From NCBI GenBank assembly GCA_029027985.1, contig CP119076.1:3470422-3534421 (forward strand): a DNA stretch of 64,000 bases, written 5' to 3'. The stretch comes from Klebsiella aerogenes (GTDB lineage: Bacteria > Pseudomonadota > Gammaproteobacteria > Enterobacterales > Enterobacteriaceae). The position numbers and the translations under genes are program-made. The stretch's first letter is position 1; the number at the start of each line of letters is the position of its first letter. The notes under the pieces were generated by a model. It ran no database searches and was not told the DNA's origin. It saw only the letters and a list, made by a program, of their open reading frames with translations. Below are positions 3,216 to 21,408 of this stretch, in pieces.

Positions 3216-5903
3216 ATGAGTGACGAGCCGCTGCGTCCGGACCCTGACCGCCTGCTGCAACAAACCGCCGCGCCGCATCGCGGCAAGTTGAAGGTGTTTT
3301 TCGGCGCCTGCGCCGGGGTCGGTAAGACCTGGGCGATGTTAGCGGAAGCGCAGCGGCTACGCGCTCAGGGGTTAGATATTCTGATCGGCGTGGCGGAAAC
3401 CCACGGCCGCAAAGAGACCGCCGCGATGCTGGAGGGGCTGGGTACCCTCCCGCAGCGGCGAATTTCCCATCGCGGACGCTATGTCCACGAGTTTGATCTC
3501 GATGCCGCGCTGGCGCGCCGCCCGGCGCTGATTCTGGTCGATGAACTGGCGCACAGCAACGCGCCGGGTTCGCGCCATCCCAAACGCTGGCAGGACGTCG
3601 AGGAGCTACTGGAATCCGGTATCGACGTCTTCACCACCGTCAACGTCCAGCATCTCGAAAGCCTCAATGATGTTGTCAGCGGGATCACCGGCGTGCAGGT
3701 CCGCGAAACCGTCCCCGACCCCTTCTTTGACGCCGCCGACGATGTCGTACTGGTGGACCTCCCGCCGGACGATCTGCGTCAGCGCCTGAACGAGGGCAAG
3801 GTGTATATCGGCGGTCAGGCCGAGCGCGCCATCGAGAATTTCTTCCGCAAAGGTAACCTGATCGCCCTGCGCGAACTGGCGCTGCGCCGTACCGCCGACC
3901 GGGTGGATGAACAGATGCGCGCCTGGCGCGACCGTCAGGGGCAAGAGAAAGTCTGGCATACCCGCGACGCGATTTTGTTATGTATCGGCCACAATACCGG
4001 CAGCGAAAAACTGGTGCGCGCCGCCGCCCGTCTGGCCGCACGATTGGGCAGCGTCTGGCACGCAGTCTACGTCGAAACGCCCTCTCTGCACCGCCTGCCG
4101 GAGAGCAAGCGACGGGCGATCCTCGCCGCCCTAAGACTGGCGCAGGAACTGGGCGCCGAGACCGCGACCCTTTCCGATCCGTCGGAAGAAAAAGCGGTTC
4201 TGCACTACGCCCGCGAACACAACCTCGGCAAAATAGTGATTGGCCGCCAGGGGGAACGCCGCTGGTGGGAGAGAGCGGGTTTTGCCGACCGTCTGGCGCG
4301 CCATGCTCCAGACCTCGATCTGGTCGTCATCGCGTTGGATGAAAAACCAGCTTCCCTTCCCGCTCGCGCCAACGACACGCGTTCAGCGGTCGATAAATGG
4401 CGCCAGCAGTTGAAGGGCTGTCTGCTGGCCGTGGCGCTATGCGCCATTATCACTGTCGTCGCCATGCAGTGGCTGATGGCCTTTGAAGCCACCAACCTGG
4501 TGATGTTGTATCTCCTTGGGGTGGTGATTATTGCCCTGCTGTATGGCCGCTGGCCGTCGGTACTGGCAACCTTTGTCAACGTCATCAGTTTCGATCTCTT
4601 TTTTGTCGCCCCACGCGGCACGCTGGCGGTTTCCGATGTCCAGTACTTGCTGACTTTCGGCGTGATGCTGACCGTCGGTCTGGTTATCGGCAACCTGACC
4701 GCTGGCGTCCGCTATCAGGCGCGGGTCGCGCGCTATCGCGAACGCCGCACCCGCCATCTGTATGAAATGTCAAAAGCGCTGGCCGTCGGCCGCAGCCGCG
4801 AAGATATCGCCGCCACCAGCGAACGTTTTATTACCTCCACTTTCCAGGCTCGCAGCCAGCTGCTGCTGCCTGATGAACACGGGCATCTGCGCCCCCTGAC
4901 CCAGCCGTCCGGCGTTTTCTCGTGGGATGATGCGATTGCCCGCTGGAGCTTTGATAAAGGCCAACCTGCCGGCGCCGGTACCGACACGCTTCCTGGCGTG
5001 CCGTATCAAATTCTGCCGCTGCAAAGCGCCGCCCGCACCTGGGGACTGCTGGTGGTCGAACCGGAGAATCTACGTCAGTTGATGATCCCGGAGCAACAAC
5101 GACTGCTGGAAACCTTCACCCTGTTGGTGGCCAGCGCCCTTGAACGCCTGACCCTCACCGCCAGCGAGGAACAAGCGCGGCTGACCAGCGAACGCGAAAG
5201 CCTGCGTAACTCCCTGCTGGCCGCCCTCTCCCACGATCTACGTACCCCGCTGACGATACTGTTCGGCCAGGCGGAGATCCTCACGCTCGATCTCGCCAGC
5301 GAAGGATCGAAGCATGCGCCGCAGGCGAATGAAATCCGTCAACATGTGCTCAACACCACCCGACTGGTTAACAATCTGCTGGATATGGCGCGCATCCAGT
5401 CTGGCGGTTTTAATCTACATAAAGAATGGTTAACGCTGGAAGAGGTCATCGGTAGCGCTTTGCGAATGCTGGAGCCGGGGCTCGGCGGTCAGCATATCCA
5501 GTTGGCGCTGCCGGATCCGCTGCTGCTGGTACACGTTGACGGCCCGCTGTTTGAACGCGTGCTGATCAACCTGCTGGAGAACGCGCATAAATATGCGGGC
5601 GCGCAGGCGCAGATTGGTATTCACGCCGAGGCCGATGCGCAACAGTTGGTCGTCGAGGTCTGGGATAACGGCCCGGGGATCCCGACAGGTCAGGAACAGG
5701 CTATCTTTGATAAATTCGCCCGCGGTAATAAAGAGTCAGCCATTCCCGGCGTTGGTCTGGGACTGGCGATTTGCCGGGCCATTGTCGAAGTACATGGCGG
5801 AACTATTACCGCAATGAACCGGCCGGAGGGCGGCGCCTGTTTCCGTGTTACACTGCGGCAAGAAGCTCCCCCTGAACTGGAAGAGTTAGTCGAGGAAATG
5901 TGA
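3216..5903 (+). CDS. kdpD: KdpD, K+-responsive sensor histidine kinase
   Basis: Membrane sensor kinase that phosphorylates KdpE when K+ is limiting. Its 895 residues are one more than in E. coli. In order: an N-terminal KdpD domain with a Walker A-like GACAGVGKT near residue 30 and a VDELAHSN Walker B-like block near 108; a USP-like domain at about 250-375; four closely spaced membrane segments at about 400-500; a GAF-like region; then the kinase core. The phospho-accepting histidine is His673 in LSHDLRTPLT, and ATP-binding N, G1 and G2 boxes follow (NLLENAHKY, DNGPGI, GVGLGLAI). The stop codon overlaps the GTG start of kdpE. Confidence 0.98.
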   Translation: MSDEPLRPDPDRLLQQTAAPHRGKLKVFFGACAGVGKTWAMLAEAQRLRAQGLDILIGVAETHGRKETAAMLEGLGTLPQRRISHRGRYVHEFDLDAALARRPALILVDELAHSNAPGSRHPKRWQDVEELLESGIDVFTTVNVQHLESLNDVVSGITGVQVRETVPDPFFDAADDVVLVDLPPDDLRQRLNEGKVYIGGQAERAIENFFRKGNLIALRELALRRTADRVDEQMRAWRDRQGQEKVWHTRDAILLCIGHNTGSEKLVRAAARLAARLGSVWHAVYVETPSLHRLPESKRRAILAALRLAQELGAETATLSDPSEEKAVLHYAREHNLGKIVIGRQGERRWWERAGFADRLARHAPDLDLVVIALDEKPASLPARANDTRSAVDKWRQQLKGCLLAVALCAIITVVAMQWLMAFEATNLVMLYLLGVVIIALLYGRWPSVLATFVNVISFDLFFVAPRGTLAVSDVQYLLTFGVMLTVGLVIGNLTAGVRYQARVARYRERRTRHLYEMSKALAVGRSREDIAATSERFITSTFQARSQLLLPDEHGHLRPLTQPSGVFSWDDAIARWSFDKGQPAGAGTDTLPGVPYQILPLQSAARTWGLLVVEPENLRQLMIPEQQRLLETFTLLVASALERLTLTASEEQARLTSERESLRNSLLAALSHDLRTPLTILFGQAEILTLDLASEGSKHAPQANEIRQHVLNTTRLVNNLLDMARIQSGGFNLHKEWLTLEEVIGSALRMLEPGLGGQHIQLALPDPLLLVHVDGPLFERVLINLLENAHKYAGAQAQIGIHAEADAQQLVVEVWDNGPGIPTGQEQAIFDKFARGNKESAIPGVGLGLAICRAIVEVHGGTITAMNRPEGGACFRVTLRQEAPPELEELVEEM

Positions 5904-6577
5904 TTAACGTTTTGATCATCGAAGACGAACACGCTATCCGCCGCTTTCTGCGCACCGCGCTGGAAGCCGACGGCATGCGCGTTTTTGAAGCCGAAACCCT
6001 GCAGCGCGGGCTGCTCGAAGCCGCCACCCGCAAACCCGACTTAGCGATCCTCGACCTTGGCCTGCCGGACGGTGATGGTAATGATTTTATCCGCGAAGTC
6101 CGCCAGTGGAGCCAAATGCCGATTCTCGTCCTGTCGGCACGCAGCGAAGAACACGACAAAATTGCCGCCCTTGATGCCGGCGCAGACGATTATTTAAGCA
6201 AACCCTTCGGTATCGGCGAGCTACAAGCGCGGCTGCGCGTCGCGCTGCGCCGCCACGGCAGCGCCCAGGCTGATGAGCCGGTCGTCCGTTTTGCCGATAT
6301 TGCCGTTGATATCCCTGCCCGCCGTATCGTGCGCGGCAGTGAAGAAATTCACCTGACGCCGATTGAATTTCGCCTGTTGGCAGCGTTGCTGAATAACCCC
6401 GGCAAAGTACTCACCCAGCGCCAGCTGCTGAATCAGGTGTGGGGGCCTAACGCCGTGGAGCATAGTCACTATCTGCGGATTTATATGGGGCACTTGCGGC
6501 AAAAGCTGGAGGTAGACCCGGCGCGTCCGCAGCATCTGCTGACGGAAACCGGTATTGGTTATCGTTTTATGCCTTGA
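5900..6577 (+). CDS. kdpE: KdpE, response regulator of the kdp operon
   Basis: OmpR-family transcription factor that activates kdpFABC after phosphorylation by KdpD. It has 225 residues, the same as E. coli. The receiver domain has the acidic pair near residues 9-10, the phospho-acceptor Asp52 in ILDLGLPD, and the conserved Lys in the YLSKPF block. The winged-helix DNA-binding domain fills the C-terminal half (LTPIEFRLL to GIGYRFMP). The start is GTG, overlapping the kdpD TGA by three bases, so coupled translation is likely. It is the last gene of the block; in E. coli speF-potE follow, but here a hairpin and the convergent pgm gene follow. Confidence 0.98.
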   Translation: MINVLIIEDEHAIRRFLRTALEADGMRVFEAETLQRGLLEAATRKPDLAILDLGLPDGDGNDFIREVRQWSQMPILVLSARSEEHDKIAALDAGADDYLSKPFGIGELQARLRVALRRHGSAQADEPVVRFADIAVDIPARRIVRGSEEIHLTPIEFRLLAALLNNPGKVLTQRQLLNQVWGPNAVEHSHYLRIYMGHLRQKLEVDPARPQHLLTETGIGYRFMP

Positions 6578-6599
6578 AGGGAATGGAATTAATCAAGAA

Positions 6600-6626
6600 C
6601 CCGGCAGCCTGTTAAGGCCGCCGGGG
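6600..6626. terminator. Bidirectional hairpin between kdpE and pgm
   Basis: CCCGGC (6600-6605) pairs with GCCGGG (6620-6625), and GCC (6607-6609) with GGC (6616-6618), across one mismatch and a six-base loop. It lies in the 58-base gap between two convergent genes. No strong T tract follows on either strand, so terminator function is inferred from position. Confidence 0.5.
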
Positions 6627-6635
6627 TAATCAGGA

Positions 6636-8276
6636 TCACGCGTTTTTCAGCACTTCGCTGACAATCTCTACCGCTTCTTTTTCAATCAGCTTGCGATGTT
6701 CTTCGCCAAGGAAGCTTTCGCAGTAAATTTTGTAGGCGTCTTCGGTGCCGGATGGACGGGCCGCAAACCAACCGTTTTTGGTCATCACTTTCAGGCCACC
6801 GATGGAAGCGCCGTTGCCCGGCGCCGCCGTCAGGCGTGCGGTGATCGGATCGCCCGCCAGCGTGTCAGCGCTGACCATTTCCGGAGAGAGCTTAGACAAC
6901 GCCGCTTTCTGCGCAGAAGTCGCTGAAGCCTGCAGACGATTGTAGCTCGGCGCGCCGAAGCGTTCCGCCAGCTCATTGTAATGCTCCTGCGGGTTCTTAC
7001 CGGTTACCGCGGTAATTTCCGCCGCCAGCAGACACATGATGATGCCGTCTTTATCGGTGGACCACGGCGTGCCGTCGAAACGCAGGAACGAGGCCCCGGC
7101 GCTCTCTTCGCCGCCGAAGCCGAAGCTACCGTCGAACAGACCATCAACGAACCACTTAAAGCCTACCGGCACTTCAACCAGCTTACGGCCCAGATCGTTA
7201 ACGACGCGGTCAATCATCGCCGAGGAGACCAGCGTTTTACCGACAGCAACGTCTTTGCCCCACTGCGGGCGATGCTGGAACAGGTAATTGATCGCCACCG
7301 CCAGGTAGTGGTTCGGGTTCATCAAACCAGCCGGGGTCACGATACCGTGACGGTCGTAGTCCGGATCGTTGGCGAAGGCCAGATCGAACTTATCGCGCAG
7401 CGCCAACAGGCCCGCCATCGCGCACTCTGAGGAACAGTCCATACGGATCGCGCCGTCTTTATCGAGGTGCATAAAGCGGAACGTCTGATCAACGTGATCG
7501 TTCACGATGGTCAGATCCAGTTTGTAATACTCGCCGATGCGTTTCCAGTATTCGATACCGGAACCGCCCAGCGGATCGACGCCCAGCTTAAGACCGGCTT
7601 TCTGGATAGCCGCCATATCGACGATATCCGCAAGCCCTTCGACAAACGGCTGCACCAGATCCTGCTCTTTAACGTGGCCAGAAGCCAACGCGGCGTCAAA
7701 AGAAAGACGTTTCACGCCCTGCAGACCGGCAGCCAGCAGTTCGTTGGCACGGTTTTCGACGACTTTAGTGACGTTAGTATCAGCCGGGCCGCCGTTTGGC
7801 GGATTGTACTTGATACCGCCATCTTCCGGCGGGTTATGTGACGGGGTGATCACAATGCCGTCCGCCAGCGGGCCGCCTTTTTTGTTGTGCACCAGAATCG
7901 CATTGGAAACCGCCGGCGTCGGGGTGAAACCGTTGTTTTCCTGAACGATCACGTCAACGCCATTCGCCGCCAGCACTTCCAGCACGGAAATGAACGCCGG
8001 TTCGGATAATGCGTGGGTGTCCTTACCTACGTAGCATGGGCCAGTAATGCCGTTTTTCGCACGGTCTTCCGCAATCGCCTGCGCAATCGCCAGAATATGC
8101 TGCTCGTTGAAATTGTGGCGCCCTGCGCTACCGCGATGGCCGGAGGTGCCGAACTTAACCGCATGCTCCGCATTACCCGCTTCCGGCTTCAGTACATAGT
8201 ACTGAGCCGTGAGTTGGGCGACGTTAATCAAATCACTCTGTTGTGCCGGCTGACCCGCACGTTTATCGATTGCCAT
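6636..8276 (-). CDS. pgm: Phosphoglucomutase
   Basis: Interconverts glucose-1-phosphate and glucose-6-phosphate in the cytoplasm, linking glycolysis to glycogen and UDP-glucose synthesis. The chosen start gives [10 protein letters not shown] and 546 residues, the E. coli length; an in-frame ATG seven codons upstream (8297) lies before the AAGGATCAGGCA ribosome site and is not used. The phosphoserine loop is TPSHNPP near residue 146. The metal-binding block DPDYDRHG and the C-terminal phosphate-binding [10 protein letters not shown] are present. It lies 32 bases after seqA in the same direction, the known seqA-pgm pairing. Confidence 0.98.
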
Positions 8277-15680: not shown

Positions 15681-15795
15681 CACGGGTTCCTCAAAGCGTA
15701 AACAACGTATAACGGCACATGATCTTACAAGCAGAGATGAGTGACAACTATTAGTTGAAGAAAACTCACGAATTGTTAGAAATCAACACGGAGAA

Positions 15796-15817
15796 AGCCC
15801 GGGTAATAACCCGGGCT
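15796..15817 (-). terminator. Terminator of the MFS-fae-AKR-ALDH operon
   Basis: Perfect nine-base stem AGCCCGGGT/ACCCGGGCT with a four-base loop, starting 20 bases after the aldehyde dehydrogenase stop. Only three T residues follow on the minus strand. It isolates the operon from the glnS promoter region. Confidence 0.75.
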
Positions 15818-15836
15818 ATAAATAAGCGCGCGATGC

Positions 15837-17282
15837 TCAAAGCAACTGCCCCAGGTTCAGGTACTTTGTCTCAAGATACTCCTCCAGACCAATATCCGCC
15901 CCTTCCCTACCCAAACCGGACTCTTTCACACCGCCAAACGGCGCCACCTCCGTCGAGAGGATCCCTTCATTAACACCGACCATACCGCTTTCCAACTGAC
16001 GGGCAACGCGGAACGCGCGCGCCAGATCCCGCGTATAGAGATACGCCGCCAGACCATATGGCGTATCGTTCGCCCGAGCGATAACCTCGTTTTCGGAATC
16101 AAAACGGAAGCAGGCGGCAACCGGACCAAAGGTTTCTTCCTGGGCGATAAGCATTGCTTCCGTCGCCTCGCCCAACACCGTCGGTTGAAAGAACGATCCG
16201 CCAAGAACATGACGTTCGCCGCCGCACAACAATCTCGCGCCTTTATCCAGAGCGTCACGGATATGGGTCTCAACTTTAACGACCGCCTGCGGATGAATGA
16301 GCGGCCCCTGCTGTGCTCCCGGGGTCATGCCTGACGATACAACCAGCGCGTTCGCCGCCGCCGTCAGTTTGCTGACAAAGGTATCGTAAATACCGCTCTG
16401 CACATAAAAGCGGTTCACGCAGACACAAGTTTGCCCGCTATTGCGGAATTTCGCCGCCATCGCGCCGGCAATCGCCGCATCGACATCCGCATCGTCGAAA
16501 ATAATCATCGGCGCATTACCGCCCAACTCCAGAGACAGCTTTTTCACCGTGTCCGCGGCCTGGCGCATTAACAATTTTCCCGTCGCGGTGGATCCGGTGA
16601 ACGATATTTTTCGCACGATGGGACTGGCCATCAACGTTTCGCCGATAGCCTGCGTGTCGCCCGTCACGGCATTCAGTACCCCGGGCGGAACGCCTGCCTG
16701 CTCCGCGAGCACCAGCAGCGCAAAAGCCGATAGCGGCGTTTCATTGGCGGGTTTAATGACCGCTGTGCAGCCTGCCGCCAGAGCTGGCCCCAGCTTGCGT
16801 GTCAACATCGCCAGAGGGAAATTCCATGGCGTAATGGCGGCGACGACCCCAACCGGTTCTTTGAAGGTCATGATTCGGTTGCCGGATTTCGTTTCCGGGA
16901 TCGTTTTACCGTAGGCGCGTTTCGCTTCTTCAGCAAACCATTCAATAAAGCTCGCCGCATAGGCTACTTCGCCCATCGCCTCGCTAAGAACCTTGCCTTG
17001 TTCCGCCACCACCAGTTCGGCGAGCGCCTGCTGGTTTTCCATTATCAGGTGATACCAACGCTGCAGAATTTTCGCCCGCGCGTTCGCGGTCAGCGCCCGC
17101 CAGGTCGTCAGCGCTTGCCCTGCGGCATCAATAGAGCTTAACGTCTCTTGTCTGCCAGCCTGCGCCACCTGGGCGACAACGTCCCCGGAAGCCGGGTTAA
17201 TTACCGGGTAGCGCGCGTCCAATTCGCGCCACTCTCCCTGGCAATACCACCCCGTTCTGACTAACTCTTGAAAGCGACTCAT
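15837..17282 (-). CDS. NAD(P)-dependent aldehyde dehydrogenase, succinate-semialdehyde dehydrogenase (GabD)-like
   Basis: Oxidises an aldehyde to the acid; the closest family by eye is GabD/SSADH, but the real substrate is unknown. It has 481 residues. The oxyanion Asn154 is in PWNFP, the cofactor-binding segment is SFTGSTATGK near 227-236, the general base Glu252 is in LELGG, and the catalytic Cys286 is in GQTCVCVNR, with a second Cys two residues later as in SSADH proteins. The start codon overlaps the aldo/keto reductase stop (ATGA), so it is translationally coupled. It is the last gene of the operon after MFS, fae and AKR, suggesting that it removes an aldehyde made or imported by that pathway. 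Confidence 0.88.
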   Translation of the reverse strand: MSRFQELVRTGWYCQGEWRELDARYPVINPASGDVVAQVAQAGRQETLSSIDAAGQALTTWRALTANARAKILQRWYHLIMENQQALAELVVAEQGKVLSEAMGEVAYAASFIEWFAEEAKRAYGKTIPETKSGNRIMTFKEPVGVVAAITPWNFPLAMLTRKLGPALAAGCTAVIKPANETPLSAFALLVLAEQAGVPPGVLNAVTGDTQAIGETLMASPIVRKISFTGSTATGKLLMRQAADTVKKLSLELGGNAPMIIFDDADVDAAIAGAMAAKFRNSGQTCVCVNRFYVQSGIYDTFVSKLTAAANALVVSSGMTPGAQQGPLIHPQAVVKVETHIRDALDKGARLLCGGERHVLGGSFFQPTVLGEATEAMLIAQEETFGPVAACFRFDSENEVIARANDTPYGLAAYLYTRDLARAFRVARQLESGMVGVNEGILSTEVAPFGGVKESGLGREGADIGLEEYLETKYLNLGQLL

Positions 17283-18322
17283 GCTGTTTTCCTTATATTG
17301 ACTTCATCAATGAAAATCCCTTGCGCCGGGCGACCATCCCGCGAGATCCGTTTACCCGCGGTATAATCATTAATCACATCGCATGGCGTATAGTTGCGCT
17401 CCAGCTCAAAACGTTCTTCGTCGCTAAGCCAGGTTTCCATTGCCGCAATGGCGCAGTCAATTTGATTGGCGGTATCCGCGCCAACCAGCATGCAGTCAAC
17501 CCCAGGATGATTCAGTACCCAGGATTGCGCTACCTGCGCCGGCGACACCCCACGCAGGGCTGCGACCCGACTCACGGATTGCGCGATTTGCACCGAGGCG
17601 CTGTCGGCATACATTTCCTGGGTGAAAAAGTCGGTTTTATTGCGGGTTGAGTTAAAATCACAGCTCAACAACCCGCGCGCCAGCGGACTGAACACGGAGA
17701 CGCCCAACCCTTGATCGCGACAAAACGGGATCATTTCGCGTTCTTCTTCTCGATAAGCGCAATTCAACTGCAGCTGCATATTGATCGGCCGCGTAAAGCC
17801 ATTACGCTCGCAGCACCAGAGGATTTTTGCCAGCTGCCAGGTGTACATCGTGGACACGCCGACATAACGCGCTTTACCGGCGCGGACGATCGCATCCATC
17901 GCCGCCCAGGTCTCCTCAACGGGAGTATTCACGTCAAAATAGTGCAGCATATAGACATCAACATAGTCGGTGCCAAGGCGTCGCAGGCTGGCATCAATAC
18001 TGTCCATAATATGCTTGCGCGAGTGTCCCTGGTTATTCACTCCGCCGCCGATGGGATAACCCACTTTTGTGGTTAACACCAGCTCATCACGTTTCGCAAT
18101 ACGGGAAACGATCCGGCCTACCACCTCTTCCCCGGCGCCGCTGGAGTAAAAGTCCGCCAGGTCGATAAAGTTAATGCCGCTTTCGAGTGCATGACGGATT
18201 AGCGGCTCGCTTTGCGCCTCATCGAAAATCCACGGTTTCCATTGCTTGCTCCCCATGTTCATGGTTCCCAGGCACAAACGCGATACCTTCAAACCACTCT
18301 GGCCAAGATGTATATATTGCAT
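17279..18322 (-). CDS. Aldo/keto reductase
   Basis: NAD(P)H-dependent carbonyl reductase of the AKR superfamily (YajO/Tas-like by eye), 347 residues. The catalytic tetrad is visible: Asp54 and Tyr59 in DLADFYSSG, Lys86 in TTKVGYP and His127 in MLHYFD. The cofactor-binding C-terminal blocks include SPLARGLL and the VGADTANQ motif. The ATG has a GAGGAG ribosome site 8 bases upstream. The gene starts 11 bases after fae and overlaps the dehydrogenase by four bases. Pairing of a reductase and a dehydrogenase suggests that two redox steps act on one carbonyl intermediate; the substrate cannot be told from sequence. Confidence 0.88.
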   Translation of the reverse strand: MQYIHLGQSGLKVSRLCLGTMNMGSKQWKPWIFDEAQSEPLIRHALESGINFIDLADFYSSGAGEEVVGRIVSRIAKRDELVLTTKVGYPIGGGVNNQGHSRKHIMDSIDASLRRLGTDYVDVYMLHYFDVNTPVEETWAAMDAIVRAGKARYVGVSTMYTWQLAKILWCCERNGFTRPINMQLQLNCAYREEEREMIPFCRDQGLGVSVFSPLARGLLSCDFNSTRNKTDFFTQEMYADSASVQIAQSVSRVAALRGVSPAQVAQSWVLNHPGVDCMLVGADTANQIDCAIAAMETWLSDEERFELERNYTPCDVINDYTAGKRISRDGRPAQGIFIDEVNIRKTA

Positions 18323-18333
18323 GGTAAAACTCC

Positions 18334-18837
18334 TCAGGCTTTCGGGGTGTAGAATGGATTGCTCGGCTGCGTCACCACATCGGCGATCTCGCTGCGCGCG
18401 GGCAGACGGTTCATCGCGGCATAAATCGCATTGCGACAGGCGCGATAGTTATTGCGATACACCTCGTCCAGATCGTCACAACCAGGGTTGACCCAATTCG
18501 CCGTCACGATGCACCATTCATCTTCCGCCTGCGGCGGTAAAATGCCCTCCAGCAGTGATTCAGTTACCGCTTTGGCGATGGCTGCCTGCGAAGCGCCCCA
18601 GGTCGCGTTAGCGTGGACTTCGCCCTGAATTTCGGCCTTATTGACGTAAAGGGTCATCGGCTTTGCCGGAATATTCGGTTTAATCACGACCATAAACGGG
18701 CAGTGTCCCTGGCTTGGCGATGCCAGACTTGTGGAAAAGGCCTGACCAACCACGCCGCTGCGCGGGCCAATCATGATGTTGATATGTGAGGCGTTAATGC
18801 CGCTGCCTTCAAAACCTTCGCCGATATACATTTCCAT
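18334..18837 (-). CDS. Formaldehyde-activating enzyme (Fae) homologue
   Basis: It resembles Fae, which condenses formaldehyde with tetrahydromethanopterin in methylotrophs. The start chosen here (MEMYIGEGFEGSG) has AAGGAG seven bases upstream and gives 167 residues, close to the 170 of Methylobacterium Fae; an ATG six codons upstream precedes the ribosome site. The catalytic-type His is His18, directly before the INIMIGPR block. The KPNIPAKPMTLYVNK segment, the AAIAKAV...EGILP helix region and the NNYRACRNAI C-terminal block align with Fae. It lies between the transporter and the reductase genes. No tetrahydromethanopterin gene is in the window, and enterobacteria are not known to make that cofactor, so the true ligand may be another aldehyde or carrier. 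Confidence 0.85.
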   Translation of the reverse strand: MEMYIGEGFEGSGINASHINIMIGPRSGVVGQAFSTSLASPSQGHCPFMVVIKPNIPAKPMTLYVNKAEIQGEVHANATWGASQAAIAKAVTESLLEGILPPQAEDEWCIVTANWVNPGCDDLDEVYRNNYRACRNAIYAAMNRLPARSEIADVVTQPSNPFYTPKA

Positions 18838-18857
18838 GAATAACTCCTTCAACATTG

Positions 18858-20219
18858 TTATTTAGCCGGAATCGCCGCGCGTGATCCCGCGTGTTTTTTT
18901 GGGTCATGGGCGGCATCAACCAGGGTTAACCCTTTGGTTTCAGGCGCCCAGGCCAGGGAGACGATGGTGCCGAGAACCAAAACCAGCGCCAGAATGCCGA
19001 TGGTGACAGACAGACCAAAATGCACGATACACAGGGGTAAAAAGGCGGTACCGATAGCCGATCCCAGTCGGCTCATTGATGTGGCGAATCCCACCCCCAT
19101 CGAACGGACTTCTGTTGGAAAACTCTCTGCGGGGAAGACGCCAACGAGATTGCTCACCGCCGACATCACCAGGGTAAAGGCTGCAAAAAGCACAATAATC
19201 AACCCGGTATGATGCGCGGATAAGAGGCTCATCAGAGTCAGACAGACGGCGAGGAATATAAATGCGCCGATTAAAAAGCCCCGCCGCGAGCACACCGCCG
19301 TCAGGACGATGCCGAGTATGGCGCCGACAATCAGCAGGCCATTCAGCAGGAGATCAGTGCCGAAACTTTGGTCAAGTTTCATCGCCGATAAAATCGATGG
19401 TAAGAAGGTGTAAATAGCGAAATAAGGAATAACCAGACAGACAAAAAACAGGCTGTTAAACGCGGTACGGCGGCGATATTTTGGCCCAAACAGCGACATA
19501 AACCGCTGACGCGACACCACAATATCTTCATCCACCAGCAGGACATGAGGCCCAAGATGGCGATGCACAATCGCCATCGCCTGTTGACGACGCCCTTTCC
19601 CCATCAACCAACGTGGTGATTCCGGCGTGCCAATACGGCACAGAAGAATGATTAATGCCGGCACGGCGGAGGAAGAAAGCAGCCAGCGCCAGGCATCCGG
19701 CCCCATATCCGCAAGGAAGTGCCCCGCAAACCCAGCGGCGACATAACCAACCGTCCAGATCACGCTGAACGACCCCAGCAGCACGCCGCGGTGTTTACGT
19801 GGTGAAAATTCGGCCAACATGGTATGACCTACCGAGAAGTCGCCCCCTAAACCAATCCCCACCAACACCCGCAGATAGAACAACTGTTCCGGCGTAGTGG
19901 CAAAGAATTGCGCGGCGGAAGCCAGCGTGATCACCACAAAACTGAAGCTGAAGATCTTCTGCCGCCCCACATAATCCGAGATCCAGCCCAGCACCAGACT
20001 GCCAATAAACAGCCCTATCAGGGCGGAACTGCCCAACATGCCCTCCTGAAACGGCGTAAGCGCCATTTGCGGTTTAATTTGCGCCAGGGCAAAACCAATA
20101 ACGCCCAGCACATAGCCATCGGTAAAGTGCGCACCAAACGTCAGGCCGGCGATTTTCAAGTGAAAACGGTTGAGTGGAACATCGTCCATCCGTACGGCTT
20201 GTTGTGTTAGTTGTTGCAT
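18858..20219 (-). CDS. MFS metabolite:H+ symporter (YaaU/YgcS-like)
   Basis: Inner-membrane transporter of 453 residues with about twelve hydrophobic segments. The loop 2-3 signature is GWISDYVGRQKIF, and the sugar-porter-type PESPRWLMGKGRR follows segment 6. Closest by eye are E. coli YaaU and related metabolite transporters of unknown substrate. GGGAGGAAGAGTC precedes the ATG. It is the first gene of the operon, followed 20 bases later by fae, and faces the divergent LysR gene across 233 bases. The cargo is probably the compound degraded by the downstream enzymes; an organic acid or polyol is plausible but unproven. Confidence 0.87.
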   Translation of the reverse strand: MQQLTQQAVRMDDVPLNRFHLKIAGLTFGAHFTDGYVLGVIGFALAQIKPQMALTPFQEGMLGSSALIGLFIGSLVLGWISDYVGRQKIFSFSFVVITLASAAQFFATTPEQLFYLRVLVGIGLGGDFSVGHTMLAEFSPRKHRGVLLGSFSVIWTVGYVAAGFAGHFLADMGPDAWRWLLSSSAVPALIILLCRIGTPESPRWLMGKGRRQQAMAIVHRHLGPHVLLVDEDIVVSRQRFMSLFGPKYRRRTAFNSLFFVCLVIPYFAIYTFLPSILSAMKLDQSFGTDLLLNGLLIVGAILGIVLTAVCSRRGFLIGAFIFLAVCLTLMSLLSAHHTGLIIVLFAAFTLVMSAVSNLVGVFPAESFPTEVRSMGVGFATSMSRLGSAIGTAFLPLCIVHFGLSVTIGILALVLVLGTIVSLAWAPETKGLTLVDAAHDPKKHAGSRAAIPAK

Positions 20220-20452
20220 GACTCTTCCTCCCTCAGGAGCTGAGTTTGTTTGTAGGGTATATGTGTTTTTTATGTTTTCTTTCGGTTAACAACATGACAA
20301 CAAACCCCATGACTGGCGAGCGAGTTCTTGGCATACCCCTATGAGTAAAAAGCATGTGATCGCCTTCTTCTTTCTGATAAATAGTCATAGCCTCATAACA
20401 GAGAACTCCACTATTTGGTAACAACAAAGCAACAACCCAAAGGCACCCTATT
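20220..20452. promoter_or_regulatory. Divergent control region of the fae cassette
   Basis: A 233-base A/T-rich interval between the MFS gene and the LysR gene. By family rule a LysR-type activator binds here and controls both directions. I see several T-N11-A candidates but none clearly better than the others, so no operator is assigned. Confidence 0.5.
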
Positions 20453-21367
20453 GTGAGAAAACTGCCATCGCTCAGCGCTCTGCGTATTTTTGAAGAAACC
20501 TGCCGCACGCTGAGTTTAAGTAAAGCGGCCCAGACGCTCTGCATTACCCAGAGCGCAGCCAGTCGGCAGGTCAAACATCTGGAGGAGTTTCTTGGCAAAT
20601 TGCTGTTTGTCCGTCATCACAGCGGCTTACAGCTGACTCAGGACGCTGCGATGCTGCTGCCAATCGTGCGGCAGTCTCTGGATATGCTGGAGGATGGCAT
20701 TGCCCAGATTCAGCTGCGTAATCCACTGCAACACCTGCGTTTACAGGTCGCCCCGACCTTCGCCACCCGCTGGCTGGCGCCGCGGCTGGTTACTCTTCGC
20801 CAGCGCAACAACCAGCTACAAATCGCGCTGGTCAGCGAAACCCGGCAGAAGTATTGCGATTTTGATTGCGCCGTACGCTTTGGCACGCCTCGTCAGGCGC
20901 AGCTGCAGGGAGAATGGTTATGTCATGAACGTCTGGTGCTGGTCGCCAGTCCGCTGTTGATGATTAACGGTATTTTCCCTCCCCCAGAAAACCAGCCGCA
21001 GCTACATATCCTCAACGGCGACGCCCGGCTGGATAACTGGGAACGTTGGCAGGAAGGCTGCGGACAGGCCAATACCGCGACCTTTGGCGGGCTCGAATTC
21101 AGCACCGAGGATCAGGTGATCAATGCCTGCGTAACCGGGGCAGGCTATGCTGTCCTCGACGTGATGATGATCCGCAAAGAGCTTGATGCCGGGTTACTGG
21201 TGCAAATCTCGCCATACGAGCTGCAAAGTGAGAACGGTTACTGGCTGGAGACGGCGCCCGGGAAGGAGAACCTGTCACGCATTATCTATTTTCGCGACTG
21301 GCTAAAAGCGGAGATTCATCAATTCTGGCTGCAAGAAAACGCCATTCAACTGGAGCAGACGGGATAA
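20453..21367 (+). CDS. LysR-family regulator, GcvA-like, of the adjacent operon
   Basis: 304-residue transcription regulator. The N-terminal winged helix-turn-helix covers about residues 6-65 (FEETCRTLSLSKAAQTLCIT, then SAASRQVKHLEEFLGK), followed by a periplasmic-binding-like effector domain that begins near residue 92. The start is GTG, with AAAGGCACCC as a modest ribosome site; no in-frame ATG is near. It is transcribed away from the MFS-fae-AKR-ALDH operon, so local control of that operon is the simplest reading. The inducer is unknown. A long hairpin after it is shared with nagE on the other strand. Confidence 0.87.
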   Translation: MRKLPSLSALRIFEETCRTLSLSKAAQTLCITQSAASRQVKHLEEFLGKLLFVRHHSGLQLTQDAAMLLPIVRQSLDMLEDGIAQIQLRNPLQHLRLQVAPTFATRWLAPRLVTLRQRNNQLQIALVSETRQKYCDFDCAVRFGTPRQAQLQGEWLCHERLVLVASPLLMINGIFPPPENQPQLHILNGDARLDNWERWQEGCGQANTATFGGLEFSTEDQVINACVTGAGYAVLDVMMIRKELDAGLLVQISPYELQSENGYWLETAPGKENLSRIIYFRDWLKAEIHQFWLQENAIQLEQTG

Positions 21368-21371
21368 AAAC

Positions 21372-21408
21372 CATAAAAAAGCGGCGGAGGTTATTCCTCC
21401 GCCGCTGA
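21372..21408. terminator. Terminator between the LysR gene and nagE
   Basis: Eleven-base perfect stem AGCGGCGGAGG (21380-21390)/CCTCCGCCGCT (21396-21406) with a five-base loop. A run of A residues lies on the LysR side, giving a T tract for nagE transcripts on the minus strand. It serves two convergent genes. Confidence 0.88.

Follow-up and report, generated by a model that had tools for sequence, protein, structure and literature searches.

The window, a stretch of 64,000 nucleotides from Klebsiella aerogenes, holds five genes that we refer to here as the cassette (Table 1). On the minus strand, genes for an MFS transporter, a Fae-family protein (P0001), an aldo/keto reductase (AKR), and an aldehyde dehydrogenase (ALDH) follow one another in that order, the ALDH start overlapping the AKR stop by 4 bp, and a LysR-type regulator gene is divergent from them. 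An alignment of 12 cassettes revealed a conserved operator-like element in the gap that separates the MFS gene from the LysR gene, with the pattern GATCACATGC...GGGTATG...CGCTCGC. The top NCBIfam match of the MFS transporter was aromatic acid/H+ symport, below the cut-off. In its own genome, the cassette sits between glnS and nagE, and its GC content (0.536-0.58) is like that of the window (0.552), giving no sign of foreign origin by base composition. The reading frame of P0001 lies on the minus strand; the plus strand over 18334-18837 is interrupted by stops in that frame. We considered a start at 18837 likelier than the longer open reading frame up to 18855, because the enterobacterial relatives of P0001 start with MEMYIGEGF or VEMYIGEGF and an AAGGAG motif lies directly ahead of 18837.

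Table 1. Features of the cassette in the window and of neighboring genes in related loci
Feature	Position	Strand	Basis or remark
Fae-family protein P0001, 167 aa	18334..18837	minus	Reading frame and PF08714/TIGR03126 profiles, PDB match, AlphaFold2/Foldseek
Aldo/keto reductase (AKR), 347 aa	17279..18322	minus	PF00248; 11 bp past fae
SSADH-like aldehyde dehydrogenase (ALDH), 481 aa	15837..17282	minus	TIGR01780, 679.2 bits (cut-off, 646.35)
MFS transporter, 453 aa	18858..20219	minus	Sugar_tr/MFS_1; 20 bp ahead of fae
LysR-type regulator, 304 aa, divergent	20453..21367	plus	Top NCBIfam match GcvA, below cut-off
Operator-like element, MFS-LysR intergenic region	20316..20361	minus	Alignment of 12 cassettes
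Presence/absence unit, approximate extent	15757..21371		glnS-nagE junction in three same-genus genomes
HalD-like oxygenase and M24-family protein	L183:1260-3522; L185:7839-10012; L187:7626-10038		Beside Dpp-type importer

P0001 matched PF08714 (Fae), its sole Pfam family, with 171.9 bits (E = 1.4e-50; gathering cut-off, 27), residues 5-161 aligning to positions 1-157 of the 159 in the profile. It also passed TIGR03126, the NCBIfam Fae equivalog (142.8 bits; cut-off, 118.05). Sequence matches in the PDB comprised two distinct sequences, Methylobacterium extorquens Fae (1y5y/1y60; E = 1.2e-21) and 8ub7, a chain named Avd that aligns over a Fae stretch (E = 6e-21). An AlphaFold2 model computed with 27 window and locus sequences reached a pLDDT of 75.5 and a pTM of 0.74 and was weakest at residues 63-69 and 162-166. 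When this model was submitted to Foldseek, five chains of 1y5y/1y60 were the only matches with E ≤0.001 (E = 2.4e-11 to 8e-11; TM, ~0.7). The full-length homology to Fae that a first-pass annotation of this DNA had read by eye is thus borne out by the family profile, by the PDB match, and by a predicted fold that is nearest to solved Fae. No fused hexulose-phosphate synthase domain of the bifunctional Fae/HPS type was detected in P0001 (116.2 bits against a cut-off of 274, over profile positions 2-151 of 392), and the Pfam search of the protein detected no domain of the glutathione-dependent Gfa. P0001 was the single Fae match in its own genome.

The presence of Fae is usually read as a sign of formaldehyde oxidation dependent on tetrahydromethanopterin (H4MPT). 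However, neither methenyl-H4MPT cyclohydrolase (MCH) nor beta-RFAP synthase was found in the genome of the window, in searches that were positive for archaeal controls and for Paraburkholderia oxyphila (genome G298); absence of the H4MPT route is judged here by these two markers. To that extent, the earlier remark that enterobacteria are not known to make H4MPT holds for this genome. Both markers were likewise absent from 19 of 20 cassette genomes (11 from the family of the window and 9 reached through loci). The exception was P. oxyphila, the genome of locus L077, which has MCH and two beta-RFAP synthase matches along with four Fae-family genes of differing score classes (L170, L172, L173, and L174), two of them of canonical score. 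A survey of 398 genomes across the phylum gave a Fae match in 22, of which 21 exceeded the cut-off. MCH was sought in 20 of the 22, leaving out the genome of the window and the subthreshold G370: all 17 genomes with a canonical-score Fae have MCH, and none of the three with cassette-type Fae only has it. Cassette-type Fae coexists with canonical-score copies in P. oxyphila and in G543.

Ligand contacts differ as well. For canonical Fae, we take these positions to be His22, Asp24, Leu53, Lys71, Thr73, and Gln88. Cassette-type Fae retains the His, Lys, and Gln in all 89 loci and has Asn for Asp in all 89, so that His18, Asn20, Lys67, and Gln84 of P0001 are invariant in the subfamily; the Leu position is occupied by Met, Val, or Gln (Met49 in P0001) and the Thr position by Glu, Ala, Gln, Asp, Val, or Pro (Glu69 in P0001). 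Three of the six positions are therefore replaced in P0001, and the Asp-to-Asn change could abolish the canonical Fae reaction. In all, 31 alignment columns set the cassette type apart from canonical Fae. The reported replacement of MFGPAQHGVA in M. extorquens by TWGASQAAIA was correct (residues 79-88), and the altered ligand-facing region that the first-pass annotation noted in one protein turned out to run through the whole cassette subfamily.

Given these results, it is extremely improbable that P0001 is an ordinary H4MPT-dependent Fae working with imported or residual cofactor: its TIGR03126 score over the equivalog cut-off speaks for such an enzyme, but MCH and beta-RFAP synthase are missing, the ligand contacts are changed, and the cassette type occurs next to canonical-score copies in the same genomes. 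P0001 does not represent the methylotroph enzyme operating in an unusual host. It is very probably H4MPT-independent and the central enzyme of a catabolic cassette, acting between an oxidoreductase and a semialdehyde dehydrogenase. The cassette subfamily occurs mostly in genomes without the tested H4MPT genes, yet TIGR03126 names P0001 Fae; because this equivalog calls the cassette-type protein Fae, pathway calls built on it can be wrong. Automatic annotation via TIGR03126 can label a cassette-type protein an H4MPT enzyme where the tested H4MPT genes are absent.

The same residues bear on whether another pterin could take the place of H4MPT. P0001 might condense free formaldehyde with tetrahydrofolate, a universal cofactor, the formaldehyde coming from elsewhere in the pathway and being passed to FolD-type enzymes. 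Such a reaction would fit the retention of His, Lys, and Gln alongside the change of three of the six pterin contacts, as well as the absence of MCH and beta-RFAP synthase. However, no folate enzyme was found among the annotated genes of the neighborhood, where part of the genes were annotated, and the host already has a formaldehyde dehydrogenase (TIGR02818). We therefore regard the tetrahydrofolate reaction as unlikely.

In the phylogenetic tree, cassette-type Fae fell outside the canonical group (support, 95/94), and its 26 rows formed one side of a branch supported at 93/91. Upon removal of the long-branched canonical row L123, support for the cassette and canonical branches dropped to 92/85 and 89/79, and the placement of the Streptomyces row is therefore uncertain; the other 25 cassette rows held at 99/96 and 98/98. 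Relative to M. extorquens Fae, the cassette type has in common the profile, the fold, the full-length alignment, and the His/Lys/Gln positions but differs in the Asp/Leu/Thr positions, the gene neighborhood, the tree group, and a host without the tested H4MPT genes. Identity to the M. extorquens protein was 24-25% for P0001 in the structural alignment, ~28-33% for most of the cassette rows shown, and 40% for the Streptomyces row. Six paralogs formed a third group (100/100). These are of the Fae2/Fae3 type as judged by the tree, with names as used in the relevant passages of PMC3728764; they have the Pfam family in common with P0001. All six lack the catalytic His that cassette-type Fae retains. 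In these rows (L129, L130, L131, L132, L134, and L135, from H4MPT genomes), the catalytic His column holds Met or Glu and the Asp column holds Glu. A further paralog locus, L133, gave no tblastn match and is absent from the tree, and L127 of G370, which scored under the Fae cut-off, was excluded.

Within the family of the window, Fae was present in 11 of 295 genomes, and all 11 shared one five-gene set in identical order (Fae or AKR of L013, L017, and L019 was taken from tblastn, simple gene picking having given antisense open reading frames there). The flanks of these 11 cassettes represent about six different contexts, and the five-gene unit therefore behaves as a block. Three same-genus genomes in the sample had no Fae, and in them glnS runs into nagE: their sequence matches the window up to 15756-15764 and resumes from 21372-21375. 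Among complete Escherichia coli genomes (20,395 records), megablast returned no match to the 4.4-kb operon. As judged by these sequence comparisons, the cassette is a horizontally mobile or transferable five-gene unit. The first-pass annotation had pointed to the oxidoreductase neighbors but had missed this unit and its presence/absence polymorphism.

To follow the cassette beyond the family, contigs from one genome per species were scanned, which confirmed 421 relatives; the best 80 of these were kept and read together with five plasmid records out of 68 matching, 85 loci in total. An ALDH lies beside Fae in 85/85 loci, an AKR in 84/85, and an MFS transporter of the cassette type in 72/85, with the order Fae-AKR-ALDH in 83/85; because 80 of the loci are the nearest relatives, the best of 421, these fractions are not valid for the whole family. 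Fae, AKR, and ALDH thus occur together in 84/85 loci from several bacterial families, which bears out the proposed partnership of Fae with the neighboring oxidoreductases. Pairwise distances of Fae, AKR, ALDH, and MFS correlated at 0.935-0.968 across the 76 loci with all four genes, a correlation to which shared host phylogeny contributes. Hosts included Enterobacter, Serratia, Erwinia, Pantoea, Ewingella, many Pseudomonas, and Acinetobacter, as well as Paraburkholderia, Burkholderia, Caballeronia, Ensifer, and Streptomyces clavuligerus. Since Pseudomonas and relatives of Burkholderia frequently carry this subfamily, it is not peculiar to enterobacteria, a breadth that the first-pass annotation had also missed.

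In the partner enzymes, the catalytic AKR tetrad D54/Y59/K86/H127 was retained in 88/88 loci carrying an AKR, and R162, R280, and C286 of the ALDH were retained in 88/88 loci and S443 in 87/87. These ALDH residues, of which C286 is the catalytic cysteine, are the ones that in succinate semialdehyde dehydrogenase (SSADH) bind the carboxylate and the aldehyde. The cassette ALDH scored over the SSADH subfamily cut-off and below that of the gabD equivalog. A gabD-family gene over the cut-off is found elsewhere in the genome (1061 bits; another scored 764), and the cassette ALDH is therefore an extra copy. The carboxylate-binding positions of the ALDH favor a semialdehyde acid over a C1 product, and the Fae-like protein may do no C1 chemistry at all. 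The Fae fold could have been reused to isomerize or hydrolyze some other aldehyde, iminium, or lactone intermediate between AKR and ALDH, as might also be expected from the 31 dividing columns and the fixed Asn for Asp. However, the His/Lys/Gln core retained in 89/89 loci suggests related chemistry, and we consider reuse of this kind rather doubtful.

Two variants show how the cassette can be rebuilt. In S. clavuligerus, the place of the AKR is taken by a beta-hydroxyacid dehydrogenase, whose top matches (2-hydroxy-3-oxopropionate reductase and 3-hydroxyisobutyrate dehydrogenase) fell below the cut-off, and that of the MFS transporter by an importer of the OsmF-like betaine type, likewise below cut-off. 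In G1003, a genome from another class of the phylum that we took as an alphaproteobacterium, an Fe-ADH stands in the place of the ALDH and is followed by an enolase-superfamily enzyme; the Fe-ADH had sulfoacetaldehyde reductase and choline dehydrogenase as top matches and 4-hydroxybutyrate dehydrogenase as the fourth, all below cut-off. Thus, differing alcohol and aldehyde oxidoreductases swap around a constant Fae. The S. clavuligerus genes (OsmF-like betaine ABC importer, Fae, beta-hydroxyacid dehydrogenase, and SSADH-like enzyme) lie on a plasmid (L025:4511-11787), and L166:8497-18636, in a genome of another class, holds AKR, Fae, Fe-ADH, an enolase-superfamily enzyme, LysR, and a Dpp-type ABC importer. 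No SSADH was found in L166 or L191. At L087:3759-6836 in Paraburkholderia, a ProU-type betaine/choline ABC importer is divergent from the Fae cassette, and the cassette MFS gene is missing; at L190, a ProX-like gene has another enolase-superfamily gene, the second, in its vicinity. The importers differ across cassettes (MFS, Dpp-type, ProU-type, and OsmF-like ABC) and give no pointer to one substrate class. The gene content resembles that of catabolic operons for 4-hydroxybutyrate and succinate semialdehyde, which consist of an alcohol dehydrogenase and an SSADH. The logic of oxidoreductase plus SSADH is common to both, and the beta-hydroxyacid dehydrogenase and Fe-ADH types that stand in for cassette enzymes conform to it as well; to our knowledge, the 4-hydroxybutyrate operons contain no Fae-family protein.

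For Pseudomonas, reading was extended around the cassettes of eight genomes (L182-L188, plus G446 through L168 and L193). A Dpp-type ABC importer was present in six of the eight (all except L184 and G446), adjoined by genes for a putative porin and LysR regulators. Its binding protein was 85-94% identical among Pseudomonas (80-92%, in three pieces, in L186) and 58-63% identical across Pseudomonas, Ensifer, and G1003. The putative porin had one weak Pfam match, below the cut-off, in an Acinetobacter relative and no PDB match. Beside the importer, three of the eight genomes carry a HalD-like oxygenase and an M24-family (DddP/creatinase-like) protein. An AldA-type ALDH gene was found in six genomes (all except L183 and G446), a galactonate-dehydratase-like enolase in five, and a GMC oxidoreductase in four, the L185 and L186 stretches ending earlier; where read, an MFS gene lies between the ALDH and enolase genes (L188 by Pfam; L182 and L187 by sequence). 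The enolase is close to PDB 4e4u (821.9 bits), which is named only mandelate racemase/muconate lactonizing enzyme. In L186, binding-protein and enolase matches at 5422-7050 and 105-1120 fall in shifted pieces, which may reflect an assembly error or broken genes. The same AldA-type ALDH/MFS/enolase/GMC set lies near the cassette in a Paraburkholderia (L189), and GMC relatives occur in L026, L077, L080, and L087. Together, a GMC/ALDH/acid-sugar-dehydratase operon accompanies the cassette in six of the eight Pseudomonas genomes (L182, L184, L187, and L188; L185 and L186 in part) and in one Paraburkholderia. GMC and dehydratase genes were absent around ten enterobacterial relatives (L012-L021; stretches of 11.7-18 kb each) and in two of the eight Pseudomonas genomes (L183 and G446, the latter by L168/L193), and G612 (L192) had none of the longer-island genes. 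Given these absences, the operon may serve a pathway of its own. The annotated island genes included no aldolase, although one could have been missed because annotation covered part of the open reading frames.

We propose the following route. A hydroxymethyl-bearing hydroxy acid or polyol-derived acid would be imported, by the MFS transporter here and by ABC systems near some relatives, and the AKR would create a carbonyl adjacent to its CH2OH group. The Fae-like protein would then either release the one-carbon unit by retro-aldol cleavage, giving formaldehyde, or pass it to tetrahydrofolate, and the SSADH-like ALDH would oxidize the remaining semialdehyde to succinate or a close analog. Any freed formaldehyde could be oxidized by the glutathione-type route of the host. 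In Pseudomonas and Paraburkholderia, the nearby GMC dehydrogenase, ALDH, and acid-sugar dehydratase could feed the cassette. Retro-aldol cleavage of 4-hydroxy-2-oxo acids yields formaldehyde if C4 is CH2OH, and the acid-sugar dehydratases near the cassette could supply such acids. Among reactions that would make use of the retained active-site core, handling of a one-carbon unit would be the most economical, and in our estimation the chances that the cassette Fae performs some C1 chemistry are evenly balanced. Retro-aldol or hydroxymethyl cleavage by this protein specifically is considerably less likely. The explanation as a whole, in which an H4MPT-free Fae handles a one-carbon unit while an imported hydroxy-acid-like nutrient is broken down to a semialdehyde, may equally prove right or wrong; we infer both its substrate and its C1 chemistry. 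It is possible, though we would not presume it, that the cassette represents a previously unrecognized Fae-fold enzyme class, a formaldehyde lyase or hydroxymethyl-transferring enzyme that needs no H4MPT and turns a hydroxymethyl-bearing acid or polyol into a C4 semialdehyde and a C1 unit in Pseudomonas, Burkholderia relatives, and Enterobacterales. If so, acid-sugar dehydratases would be linked to one-carbon metabolism in nonmethylotrophs. The cassette would define a catabolic route and its subfamily a new branch of Fae, and because the gene set is compact, has its own regulator, and is naturally present or absent among congeners, the substrate and chemistry of this branch are accessible to ordinary genetics and assays. 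We also weighed routes of the trigonelline, stachydrine, nicotine, pantothenate, vitamin B6, apionate, and 5-aminolevulinate types and assigned none of these substrates, since such routes either miss their signature enzymes here or have no clear Fae step.

Our search of open-access PMC full text brought up a single published description of such a unit, a table row in a comparative-genomics paper on P. aeruginosa (PMC6372532). For genomic island RGP103 of Pseudomonas aeruginosa CR1, that row names Fae together with an aldehyde dehydrogenase, an aldo/keto reductase, and a gluconate dehydratase, with P. citronellolis as the origin. Fae, ALDH, and AKR are common to RGP103 and the cassette; the table labels the island as aldehyde detoxification and gluconate/ketogluconate metabolism. 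This label, together with the sensing roles proposed for methylotroph Fae paralogs in passages of PMC3728764, would suit a formaldehyde-binding protein for detoxification or sensing. Such a role is very unlikely for P0001, however: an importer, AKR, and ALDH in near-constant order look catabolic, and a TIGR02818 formaldehyde dehydrogenase over the cut-off was already present in 10 of the 11 cassette enterics, including the genome of the window. No functional study of this cluster was found in open-access PMC full text, a search in which the hyphenated spelling may miss "formaldehyde activating enzyme." Literature matches in S. plymuthica and B. terrae, as far as the retrieved passages tell, concern the glutathione-dependent Gfa, which is a different family.
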